A stretch of DNA of 64,000 bases from the NCBI GenBank assembly GCA_963169875.1, contig CAUJEL010000152.1:1-64000 (forward strand). The letters are read 5' to 3'. Positions 7,806 through 40,129 of the stretch are shown one piece after another. The translations under genes were made by a program, and so were the position numbers. Under the pieces are notes generated by a model that searched no databases, was not told the DNA's origin, and saw only the letters and a list, made by a program, of their open reading frames with translations. This DNA comes from Candidatus Zhuqueibacterota bacterium. GTDB taxonomy: Bacteria; Zhuqueibacterota; Zhuqueibacteria; Residuimicrobiales; Residuimicrobiaceae. Positions within the stretch are counted from its first letter, which is position 1. Every line of letters starts with the position of its first letter.

Positions 7806-7836
7806 CAGCGCTGCGAACCGTCTATTCGCAGCGCTG
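7806..7836. repeat. Perfect 12-bp inverted repeat (hairpin)
   Basis: CAGCGCTGCGAA (7806-7817) pairs perfectly with TTCGCAGCGCTG (7825-7836) around a 7-base loop. No T-run follows on either strand, so it is not a classic terminator. It lies in the 575-base gap between the molybdenum hydroxylase genes and the caspase-like gene, and its right arm is the start of the repeat copy listed next. Confidence 0.7.
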
Positions 7837-7890
7837 AGCAGTAGCTCCGGAGGGGGCGTGTTTGCTCGCGTGCCTGGTTCAGCCTGAGCG
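7827..7890 (+). repeat. About 64-bp dispersed repeat, copy A (inverted relative to copy B)
   Basis: Beginning CGCAGCGCTGAGCAGTAGC and ending TGCCTGGTTCAGCCTGAG, this stretch matches the reverse complement of 10506-10569 with only a small indel and a few substitutions. The two copies face each other around the caspase-like and NTF2-like lipoprotein genes. Just right of it, GCCTGAGC (7881-7888) and GCTCAGGC form a further small hairpin. TTCAGCCCTCGC at 7928 recurs at 10336 and 39368. The rest of the 7605-8167 gap shows no gene. Confidence 0.75.
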
Positions 7891-8167
7891 AAGCCGAAGC
7901 TCAGGCACTCGATGCTCAGCGCCGCGATTCAGCCCTCGCTGCGCTCGAGCGTGCGCGCGCTCCAGCCCGCAGCTGATCCGCCGGTCTGTTGATGCACCTC
8001 ACACAATCCCTTAAAAACCAGTTGTTATCGAGGTTTGTCCTTGCTTTTGACCACCTGGTTCGTTATTATCCCTTGAGGGGACTAACCGTCCAATACACCA
8101 GAACTCTCCATCTGTTCCAGCGCAAAACTCCCAGGCACAAATCCATATCTTTTGTTGGTTTCTAACC

Positions 8168-10112: not shown

Positions 10113-10505
10113 AGAGCTAATATTACGGGTTGGCAAAACCTCAGGTCGACGAGTCTCATCGACTTGCAGTGGTACGGCTGGCCGCATCTAAAGGTGTCAT
10201 CCATACCTGATACATGATATCCTCATTTGTATATTCATTGCATTTACAGACTAATTCAAAAATGCCGCTATTTTCAAGCGCCAGGTCAGTTTTTTGTCTA
10301 TATTTCAGAAAATTCGGAAGATGTATAATCATTTGTTCAGCCCTCGCGTTGAGCTTGTGTGAATACGCCAGAATATTTCCTGGCGCCGTGTTTCATGCAA
10401 CGACAGGGGTTCTCATGTTATTGTTTATATGGATGCAAAATACCGGTGTTGCCTCAAAAACCGCGGCAATATCCGGAAAAAATCTGTTTTCACACAGTCT
10501 CTCCA

Positions 10506-10569
10506 CTCAGGCTGAACCAGGCACTCGAGCAGATACGCCCCCTTGCGGGGGCTACTGCTCAGCGCTGCG
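10506..10569 (-). repeat. About 64-bp dispersed repeat, copy B
   Basis: Reverse-complement counterpart of copy A at 7827-7890. CTCAGGCTGAACCAGGCA at 10506-10523 is an exact 18-base inverse match, and CTGCTCAGCGCTGCG at 10555-10569 matches the other end. Inside, GCCCCC-TTGC-GGGGGC forms a small GC hairpin absent from copy A. The surrounding 10113-10597 gap has no credible gene; the track ORF at 10214 is not coding-like. Confidence 0.75.
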
Positions 10570-10597
10570 ATTGGTACTGCCAGGAGATGGGAGGAAT

Positions 10598-29927: not shown

Positions 29928-31004
29928 TTATTTCTTCCGCAGCCGGCGAATTTCCAAAAGCGCGACCACAATGAGCGTGACCGCAGTCAGCGGCACGACA
30001 AAGTAGAGCATCACCGCGCTATAGTGCGGCAGCGCATCGTGACTCGAAGCAGCGAGCACAAGATAGAGCGTATAGGCGGCGTAGTAGAGCAGCAAAAAGA
30101 CGCCCTCGACGCGGCTGATGACGCCGCCGGTGAAAAAGATGGGCAGGCAGGCGAACGAAACGATGATCATGACGGGCAGATCAAAACGGACGACCGCCGC
30201 CGATACCAGCAGTCCTTCCGGCGCCACCACAGCGCCACAGCCGAGCACAGCCATGATGTTGAATAGATTGCTGCCGACGATGTTGCCGACGGCGATATCG
30301 CGTTCACCTCGGATGGCGGCGATGGTTGAAGTGACCACCTCCGGCAAAGAGGTGCCGGCGGCGACGATGGTCAGCCCGATCACCAGTTCGCTGACGCCCA
30401 GATACTGTGCAAAAGCCACCGCGCTGTTGACCAGCCAGCGGGACCCCAGAACCAGCAGCCCCAGGCCGAGTACGATCAGCACCACCTGGATCACCCAATT
30501 TGTTTTGCGCGTCGGCGGCAGGCCAAACTCGTTTTCGTATTCTTTTATGATTTCTGCTTTTTCACGGCGGCTCTGGATGATCAGGAACAAAATGTACCCG
30601 GCCAAGGCGATGAGAAGAAAAATTCCCTCCTGACGGCTGATGAAGCTGTCGAACGAAAAAAGATGGACCACCAGCGTCAAAACGATCATCAATGGCACAT
30701 CGATCCGCACCAGCTGTTGCGCCACCACCAGCGGCACAATCACTGCGGAGAGGCCGAGGATGAAGAGGACATTAAAGATGTTGCTGCCGACAACATTGCC
30801 GACGGCGATGTTGGCCTGGCCGGCGAGCGCGGACTTGATGCTGACTGCCAGCTCCGGTGAACTGGTGCCCAAAGCCACCACCGTCAATCCGATCACCAGC
30901 GGCGACAGGCCCAGGAGTGCTGCCAGCCGCGAGGCACCCCGAACCAGGGCCTCTGCGCCGACAATCAATGAGATGAGGCCAAGAATGAACAGGAATATCG
31001 TCAT
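29928..31004 (-). CDS. Calcium/sodium antiporter (CaCA family, YrbG-like)
   Basis: 358 aa membrane protein with ten hydrophobic segments arranged as two inverted halves. The two alpha-repeats that form the ion path are clear: GLTVVALGTSSPELAVSIKS with GNVVGSNIFN in the first half, and GLTIVAAGTSLPEVVTSTIA with GNIVGSNLFN in the second. The key acidic residues sit in SPEL and LPEV. Family role: sodium- or proton-coupled calcium exchange across the inner membrane. It is transcribed alone. A large palindromic element sits in its upstream gap. Confidence 0.94.
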   Translation of the reverse strand: MTIFLFILGLISLIVGAEALVRGASRLAALLGLSPLVIGLTVVALGTSSPELAVSIKSALAGQANIAVGNVVGSNIFNVLFILGLSAVIVPLVVAQQLVRIDVPLMIVLTLVVHLFSFDSFISRQEGIFLLIALAGYILFLIIQSRREKAEIIKEYENEFGLPPTRKTNWVIQVVLIVLGLGLLVLGSRWLVNSAVAFAQYLGVSELVIGLTIVAAGTSLPEVVTSTIAAIRGERDIAVGNIVGSNLFNIMAVLGCGAVVAPEGLLVSAAVVRFDLPVMIIVSFACLPIFFTGGVISRVEGVFLLLYYAAYTLYLVLAASSHDALPHYSAVMLYFVVPLTAVTLIVVALLEIRRLRKK

Positions 31005-31079
31005 ATTGTTCCGCGTTAGTTTTGTTCAGTGTTTAATGTTTCCATCGCATAATTCGATTTGGTACATGAAATAGATTCA

Positions 31080-31195
31080 CGCGGATCTGCTGCGGAGCTG
31101 TGACGAGGGCTTGTCCCTCGTCACAGAATCACCTGCAGCACTCGCTTGTTCTCGAACGCTTGCGCGAGCGAACGAGTGCTGCCAGCAGATCCGCG
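31080..31195. repeat. Large composite palindrome with two internal hairpins
   Basis: Outer arms CGCGGATCTGCTG (31080-31092) and CAGCAGATCCGCG (31183-31195) are a perfect 13-bp inverted repeat. Between them lie a perfect 12-bp hairpin, CTGTGACGAGGG (31098-31109) with CCCTCGTCACAG (31115-31126) and a 5-base loop, and a second hairpin with arms AGCACTCG (31137-31144) and CGAGTGCT (31173-31180). It sits between two minus-strand genes. It has no T-run typical of a terminator. A REP/BIME-like or MITE-like element, or a structured RNA, are options. Confidence 0.8.
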
Positions 31196-31362
31196 CAATT
31201 CCCATGACGCGCAAGCGTCTCGGGAACAGTCAGATTATTACCCCGCTATCATGCATGCGGGGCACCTGCGTTTGCGAACCATTCAAACGGTTCGTCTTCC
31301 TCCCCCCTCCATCATCCCGGAAAAAATGCGGGGGCGGTGATCCTGCTTTGGATGCAAAACTT

Positions 31363-32802
31363 CTATAGACTCCAGTTCCCCTCATAAGCCCGTTTGATCT
31401 GGCTGTTGGCTTCCTCCAGATTGGTGACCTTCATTTGCACACTGTCGTATTCCAGCCGTTGATTGGGATATCGGATCGCCACATTGCCCAGCAGGACAAT
31501 TTCCGTCAATGGACCGGAGACGTCAAAATTGGAACTGGCCGGGCCTTTGCCGAGGATGGCGTCGACCCATTCGCGATAGATACCCTGTGTGCGCGGCAAC
31601 GTCCTGGGCGGTTGTTTGAACTTGTGCATGGCGGTTTCAGGGATCAGCCGCGGATTGCCGCCGTAGCAGCCGCACATGAGTGTCGCTTTGCTGCCAATGA
31701 GCAGCACGCCGCCGTCCTTGTCGCCCATACGCCGTCCCGCTTCCAGCGCCTTGGGCCGGAAGGGGGTCAAACCGCCGTCATACCAGGTCATGGTCACTGC
31801 CGGCTGATCCCCCTGTTTTTCAAATTCATAGCGTACGATGCTGGCCACCGGAAAAGTGGCCTCGGTGCGCGGCGTATTACAGACGGCTTCGATGGCGCTG
31901 GGATGCCTCAGGGAAAGCGCCGTGACCGGCGTATCCATGATGTGGCACCCCATATCCCCCAGAGATCCGGTGCCGAAATCGCGGAAACCGCGCCAGCGGA
32001 AAGGCATATATATCGGATGATAGGGACGGTCCCTGGCGGGACCGAGCCACAAATTCCAGTTGAGCACCCGCGGCAGCGAAGGGGTCTCTTCGGGTACCTC
32101 AACGCCCTGAGGCCACAAGCCCGCAGGCCGGTCGGTCCAGCAAATGACCTCACGGATATCGCCGATGGCACCGGCTGCAATCCACTCCTGGACCAGCTTG
32201 TTGCCCTCCATGGCATGCCCCTGGTTGCCCATCTGAGTTGCCACTTTATAATGCTGCGCCGCTTCGGTGAGCGCCCGGGCTTCGAAAATATCATGGGTCA
32301 ATGGCTTCTGGCAATAGACATGCTTGCCCTTCTTGATGGCGGCCATCGCCGCCAGCGCATGCAGGCTGTCGGTGGTCTCGATTGTGACGGCATCCATATC
32401 TTCGCGGTCCAGCATCTCGCGAAAATCTTCATAGACCGCACAGCCATTGTAGGTCTCCTGGCCGCGTTCCTGGGCATAATATTCTTCAACCCGGCGCTTG
32501 ACCGCGACGCGGCCGGCGTCACCGCCAAAGTAGAACTCACGATAGTCCCAGATTTCCACCGGATCAGCGGCGGCCACATACTGGATTTCCGGAAAGGGGA
32601 TAAGGTTCTTCAGGTCAACCAGACTCTGACCGCCGGCGCCGATGATCCCCACGGTGATTTTGTCGCTGGGCGCCACATGCCCCGGCCCGCCAAGGACCCG
32701 GCGCGGCACAATGGTGAATCCGGCGGTCACGGCCGTCGCTGTTTTCAGAAATTCCCGGCGTGTGCTTCCCGCGGCTCCGGCATCCGCTGTATCCTGTTTC
32801 AT
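31363..32802 (-). CDS. Tat-exported Gfo/Idh/MocA family oxidoreductase
   Basis: 479 aa. The N-terminus has a twin-arginine signal (STRREFLKTATAVTAGFTIV) and AGGAGG before ATG 32802. The Rossmann domain starts at KITVGIIGAGGQSLVDLK. The conserved Lys-containing motif appears as GKHVYCQKPLTHD (usually EKP), and TQMGNQGHAMEG follows. The C-terminal half is the alpha/beta substrate domain (GDMGCHIMDTPVTALSL). Such enzymes use tightly bound NAD(P) to oxidise, epimerise or hydrolyse sugars; exported members are common in saccharide-degrading FCB bacteria. It is downstream of a GH2 glycosidase and a second Gfo/Idh gene on the same strand, suggesting a shared glycoside pathway. Confidence 0.9.
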   Translation of the reverse strand: MKQDTADAGAAGSTRREFLKTATAVTAGFTIVPRRVLGGPGHVAPSDKITVGIIGAGGQSLVDLKNLIPFPEIQYVAAADPVEIWDYREFYFGGDAGRVAVKRRVEEYYAQERGQETYNGCAVYEDFREMLDREDMDAVTIETTDSLHALAAMAAIKKGKHVYCQKPLTHDIFEARALTEAAQHYKVATQMGNQGHAMEGNKLVQEWIAAGAIGDIREVICWTDRPAGLWPQGVEVPEETPSLPRVLNWNLWLGPARDRPYHPIYMPFRWRGFRDFGTGSLGDMGCHIMDTPVTALSLRHPSAIEAVCNTPRTEATFPVASIVRYEFEKQGDQPAVTMTWYDGGLTPFRPKALEAGRRMGDKDGGVLLIGSKATLMCGCYGGNPRLIPETAMHKFKQPPRTLPRTQGIYREWVDAILGKGPASSNFDVSGPLTEIVLLGNVAIRYPNQRLEYDSVQMKVTNLEEANSQIKRAYEGNWSL

Positions 32803-37320: not shown

Positions 37321-37385
37321 CAAGTCGTCCTTTCAATAATAAAAGGGTTGCTTCGAGAAATCGTACGGTTTCATTTTTTATCTTA

Positions 37386-37469
37386 CCTAAATTGAGCGAT
37401 TGGTGCACAAAAGGCAACCTTGCGAAGGGTGGGAACCTTCGCAAGGTTAAGGCAATCGCTCAGTTCAGG
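37386..37469. repeat. Nested palindrome in a divergent intergenic region
   Basis: Outer arms CCTAAATTGAGCGATTG (37386-37402) and CAATCGCTCAGTTCAGG (37453-37469) pair over 17 positions, counting two G-T-type differences. Inside is a perfect 13-bp hairpin, AACCTTGCGAAGG (37416-37428) with CCTTCGCAAGGTT (37436-37448). It lies between the Gfo/Idh gene (minus, from 37320) and the glycosyltransferase (plus, from 37880). The rest of this 559-base gap is AT-rich without a gene. Confidence 0.8.
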
Positions 37470-37879
37470 TCTTATTATAAAAGAACCATACTGAGGCACA
37501 TTATATATACTCCCGGCCGACGTTGTGCACCGGGTTGGAGAGCGTCCGGATAAGCCGTTGGCACTTGCTGTTTGCAAAAGTATTGTACGCGTTATTCAGC
37601 AGTGAAGTCAATGCACTCTGTTACAAATACGAAAATTCTCTAATTAACACAAGTAATTTTTTTCGCTCGATTTTGTACCGCAAAAATTATCCCTTGTGAG
37701 AACTTGAACGCCGCCAGCCTTCTCAACGATATATCAAATTATTACCTTGCTTTCTGCATCCCAAACCGCTATTTTTCAATACATGAAGGATGAAGCCATC
37801 CCTCTATAACTTGTGAATAATGAATTCGCCCCGGTAAATCTAAAACTCTGGAAAACAAGTAAAACGGAGATCAGATTAT

Positions 37880-39864: not shown

Positions 39865-40070
39865 GATATGCCTCATCTAAAATTAGCGTGCAAGAGCCTC
39901 TCCTGAGGCCGATTCCTGCGAGGGTGGGCTCCGCCTGCTTTTGGTGGGGCACACCTTAATATCGTTCCAAGTTGGGCCCCACCTGCAAGATGGAGCCCAA
40001 CAGGATCGTGCTCGGAAGAGCGCTCCTGCAAATGCACCTCCCGAAAAATTCAGGCTGCAGAAAAGGTCCC

Positions 40071-40129
40071 TCTGTGTCTCCGTGCCCCGGTGGTTTAAAG
40101 AACTAACCACCGGGACACCGAAACACAGA
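40071..40129. repeat. Palindromic repeat around CCCGGTGGTT
   Basis: TCTGTGTCTCCGTGCCCCGG (from 40071) and the matching arm ending AAACACAGA (40129) form a 25-bp imperfect inverted repeat. The perfect 10-bp core is CCCGGTGGTT (40086-40095) / AACCACCGGG (40105-40114) with a 9-base loop. The unit resembles the intergenic CTCTGTGTCTCCGTG-type repeats I recall from many environmental genomes. It lies in the 377-base gap between the thioesterase and the end of the TonB receptor gene. Confidence 0.7.

Follow-up and report, generated by a model that had tools for sequence, protein, structure and literature searches.

A dispersed palindromic repeat of REP/MITE-like kind with enclosed hairpins in a Zhuqueibacterota genome

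REPs are hairpins of 20-40 bp tagged by GTAG or CGTC (PMC3733652), and MITEs are elements of 70-300 bp with inverted repeats and usually with target duplications (PMC3733652, PMC2229807). The repeat described here, a unit of about 153 bp from a Candidatus Zhuqueibacterota genome, falls fully within neither definition. It lies in a window of 64,000 nucleotides, the whole stretch of DNA that was analysed (contig CAUJEL010000152.1, positions 1 to 64,000). Compared by description, YPAL/RU-2 of Yersinia appears closest to it in build, being about 150-170 bp long and intergenic, with internal inverted repeats, no A+T-rich composition and no TA ends (PMC2229807). However, YPAL makes target duplications of 3-26 bp (PMC2229807), and none was detected for our element. 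REP/BIME elements and REPINs with their RAYT transposases share the intergenic hairpins, the mosaics and the presumed mobilisation in trans (PMC3733652, PMC3116915), whereas our element has no conserved GTAG/GGAG or CGTC tag, is longer, is low in copy number and has no cognate RAYT that we could find. The ERIC, RUP and Correia/NEMIS MITEs are likewise small, non-coding and dispersed, with inverted repeats (PMC3733652, PMC2229807), but in our element neither a target duplication nor a partner insertion sequence was found, and a third hairpin sits outside the inverted repeats. The Caulobacter CIR repeats also consist of two hairpin arms, joined by a linker (PMC2229807), unlike the hairpins of our element, which are enclosed by an outer stem.

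An earlier note, made from the letters of the window, had described positions 31080-31195 as a 116-base composite palindrome with perfect 13-bp outer arms, a perfect 12-bp hairpin and an 8-bp hairpin. The outer arms are indeed complementary at 13/13 positions and the stem of hairpin 1 at 12/12 (31098-31109 with 31115-31126). Hairpin 2 had been understated, as its arms are 20 nt long (31135-31154 and 31163-31182), 80% complementary and joined by 18 pairs in the fold. The palindrome lies between the genes at 29928-31004(-) and 31363-32802(-), and its folded strand forms a three-way junction. The RNA fold reaches -75.9 kcal/mol compared to -43.4 +/- 3.6 for dinucleotide shuffles (z -9.15), and DNA folding parameters give a z of -9.25. 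Across the whole window we observed three inverted repeats of at least 13 bp within 100 nt, against 0.125 expected from 40 dinucleotide shuffles.

Table 1. Coordinates of the palindromic repeat and of two separate repeat families in the window
Feature	Position	Strand	Basis
Whole mobile unit, about 153 bp, inferred ends ATTCACGC... / ...TCGGGAAC	31075..31227	+	Copy alignment, filled/empty site
Outer arm, left	31080..31092	+	Perfect complement of 31183-31195
Hairpin 1, 12-bp perfect stem, 5-nt loop CTTGT	31098..31126	+	Complementarity and fold
Hairpin 2, long imperfect stem	31135..31182	+	Complementarity, fold, copy alignment
Outer arm, right	31183..31195	+	
Hairpin 3 (TCCCATGACGCGCAAGCGTCTCGGGAAC), beyond the palindrome as first noted	31200..31227	+	In most copies, from alignment
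Target-site duplication TCTTA, left copy, of the 37386-37469 MITE	37381..37385	+	
84-bp MITE, 17-bp terminal inverted repeats CCTAAATTGAGCGATTG/CAATCGCTCAGTTCAGG	37386..37469	+	
Target-site duplication TCTTA, right copy, of the 37386-37469 MITE	37470..37474	+	
Palindromic repeat CTCTGTGTCTCCGTGCC...GGGACACAGAG, separate family	40071..40129	+	

The palindrome is not unique. The genome-wide DNA search proposed in the earlier note returned many partial and near-complete copies in the draft genome that contains the window (G000; 5.0 Mb, 215 contigs, 95.6% complete). We built a covariance model from ten copies, which score well by construction, and run on G000 it yields 11 full-length copies with E<1e-16, among them one outside the training set (L144, C40:115284, E 4.7e-18). 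The other genome of the same genus (G001) holds one copy at 3e-33 plus partial copies, and a genome from another genus of the same family (G004) holds one fragment at E 1.5e-7, also outside the training set. The model gave no match in 16 genomes from other families of the order, and outside the genus the DNA search returned only very short matches; those outside the family, of 21-33 nt, are probably chance and were rejected as wider relatives. A plasmid or phage origin was also rejected, as searches of plasmids and phages were matchless. The window copy is the best preserved with 43/43 pairs, though the reference structure came from this copy itself, and the G001 copy follows with 40/43.

Most copies are intergenic and adjoin different, unrelated genes, whose arrangement may be co-directional, divergent or convergent. 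Some frames in the automatic ORF list overlap copies; the one that enters a partial G001 copy (L134) was judged by eye to be a chance antisense frame and was set aside. At several sites the repeat abuts other palindromic repeats to form mosaics. The window repeats at 7826-7947 and 10268-10572 recur beside copies of the element in both G000 and G001.

When the copies were aligned with their flanks, similarity extended past 31195 into hairpin 3. As most copies carry this third hairpin, the true length of the unit is not 116 bases but about 153 bp. Hairpin 3 travels together with the rest of the unit, both in the alignment and at a filled site in G001 (contig C16); in other copies it reads CCGAGACGCGCAAGCGTCTCGG, and the unit ends in GAA followed by C or T. 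The 13-bp arms are thus internal to a unit whose end is hairpin 3, and the true ends, judged by eye, share only about 6 bp (RTTCGC). A short form in G001 (L138) consists of the outer arms and hairpin 1 without hairpin 2, which is likewise missing from L009 in G000, and we therefore take this hairpin to be a probable nested module. In another copy (L008, G000:C40:138179-138342) hairpin 2 is enlarged and seems to contain an extra nested or duplicated palindrome.

The filled site G001:C16 could be paired with an empty site on contig C21 of G000. The flanks match on both sides, with 69 nt at 90% and 240 aligned nt at 77%, and where G001 has the 157 nt that include the unit, G000 has 9 nt. Although it is the one clean pair, this comparison of the two sequences shows insertion of the whole unit; a near-precise loss in G000 is less likely. 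The junction is uncertain by a few bases. The check for target-site duplications that had been proposed detected none at this pair, and among about 450 combinations of offset and length compared across eight copies none is conspicuous, the highest z being 2.5. At the site orthologous to L144 the G001 intergenic region is too diverged for an empty site to be read. The exchanger gene beside the window copy is 65% identical in G001, but in a translated comparison its G001 neighbours could not be clearly matched to the window, and the window copy itself thus lacks a corresponding empty site.

The earlier note had also suggested that the design recurs in kind at 37386-37469 and 40071-40129. Both are palindromic repeats, but they belong to unrelated sequence families, and their likeness to the element is therefore one of kind, not of descent. 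The 37386-37469 family has about 30 copies in G000, many of them 90-95% identical, and is essentially absent from G001. At 12 loci the copies are exactly 84 bp with 5-bp A+T-rich target duplications, in which 51/60 positions are identical compared to about 26 in shuffled pairs; the count took each copy on both strands (102/120 against 52.8). Among duplication lengths only 5 stands out. A search with the terminal repeats gave no opposed pair at transposon-sized spacing, and no partner transposon was found; in all other respects the family has the strict features of a MITE. It is younger than the main element and, because G001 has hardly any trace of it, it was probably active recently. The 40071-40129 family has roughly ten copies in G000 at 76-83%, and no copy was found in G001.

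The very stable fold and the distance of only about 75 bp to the start of the downstream Na/Ca exchanger gene could point to a structured RNA or a cis-regulatory leader of this gene, the former having been among the suggestions of the earlier note. The copies, however, adjoin unrelated genes in all orientations. In the covariation check across the ten copies, both sides had changed in 7 pairs against 7.7 in shuffles, and 74.9% of cells were paired against 75.4%. We see no hint that selection has maintained a structured RNA, because base pairs are lost without compensating changes. Nor did Rfam give a match at the gathering score; the best weak match, naRNA4, scored 23.3 bits against a cut-off of 59.5 and lies at 31197-31263(-), outside the 116-base palindrome. 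We consider an RNA or leader role very improbable. A terminator was rejected as well: a simple scan of the region was empty, and the copies have no orientation preference.

The alternative suggestions of a REP/BIME-like or MITE-like element were right in kind, given the many intergenic copies and the one empty site, but neither is shown in the strict sense, as no target-site duplication or partner transposon was found, there is no conserved GTAG/GGAG tag, and the one Y1 transposase detected sits among other repeats. It is possible, if on balance unlikely, that the element is a classical MITE derived by deletion from a DDE transposon; its target duplications would then have eroded and the parent would have disappeared. 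The perfect 13-bp arms, a length of about 150 bp without coding capacity and the block presence or absence at one site would all agree with this, and the parent insertion sequence would have ends like ATTCGCGCGGGTCTGC and GTTCGCCGAGACG. Against it, duplications are missing from the eight copies and from the filled/empty pair, whereas a similar test easily detects those of the 37386-37469 family, though that family is younger; the unit also ends beyond the arms, in hairpin 3. We regard mobilisation by a RAYT-type Y1 transposase, as for a REP/BIME element, as rather improbable. Hairpins, intergenic mosaics and the lack of target duplications fit this explanation, as does a GGAG immediately before hairpin 1 in the window copy, but among ten aligned copies the window copy is the only one with GGAG at the foot of the stem, and the length of the unit greatly exceeds the 20-40 bp typical of REPs (PMC3733652). 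The genome does encode a Y1 (IS200-like) transposase of 177 aa (Pfam PF01797; L031 1200-2050 on G000:C146), the only Y1_Tnp found in G000, but the repeat found around its gene is another one, TGTAGGAGGCCTCTCCAGAGGCCGA, so that our element was rejected as the REP of this resident enzyme. The several TGTAGGAGGCCTCTCCAGAGGCCGA-type repeats flanking the gene make a REPtron-like arrangement of their own, and similar units occur near window positions 39890-40030.

The reading that we favour, and consider likely, is that of an old dispersed palindromic repeat of REP/MITE-like kind, non-autonomous and presumably mobilised in trans. Repetition, dispersal, mostly intergenic placement, block presence or absence at one site and uncompensated decay are all observed. 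The element would be a small non-coding repeat, with outer arms enclosing two hairpins and a third hairpin at one end, which was inserted whole between genes in ancestors of the genus. The mover would be a trans-acting enzyme whose gene is now absent from the neighbourhood of the unit, or present there but unrecognised; insertion would leave no detectable target duplication, and the copies would later have decayed through ordinary mutation. We infer a trans-acting transposase, perhaps recognising folded ends on single-stranded DNA, and no host function. No transposase gene bearing the ends of the unit was found in G000, and the whole-genome DNA searches list no end pair at transposon spacing, although short ends could be missed in a draft of this completeness. 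Against this preferred reading stand the lack of any linked enzyme, the lack of a conspicuous duplication in the eight copies and the single clean filled/empty pair. In addition, the copy number is low for a REP, and the palindromy that persists in about 75% of cells, even where copies have diverged, may also be a trace of weak selection. A bolder proposal, which we hold to be doubtful, is a nested-hairpin family that inserts as blocks without target duplication, swaps hairpin modules with other palindromic repeats and owes its movement, on single-stranded DNA, to an enzyme of HUH or other type that reads the folding of the ends and not their sequence.

As a genomic hitch-hiker the element is of an ordinary kind, and it has come to occupy gaps between genes both in this bacterium and in the nearest relative. 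The family appears to be undescribed, judging from the literature on this kind of element and not on the exact sequence. It enlarges the known set of small dispersed palindromic repeats by one that, within our searches, is confined to a single bacterial family, and the filled/empty pair fixes its mobile unit approximately. With a duplication-less repeat beside a MITE that makes duplications, the question of what moves such elements becomes testable within one genome.
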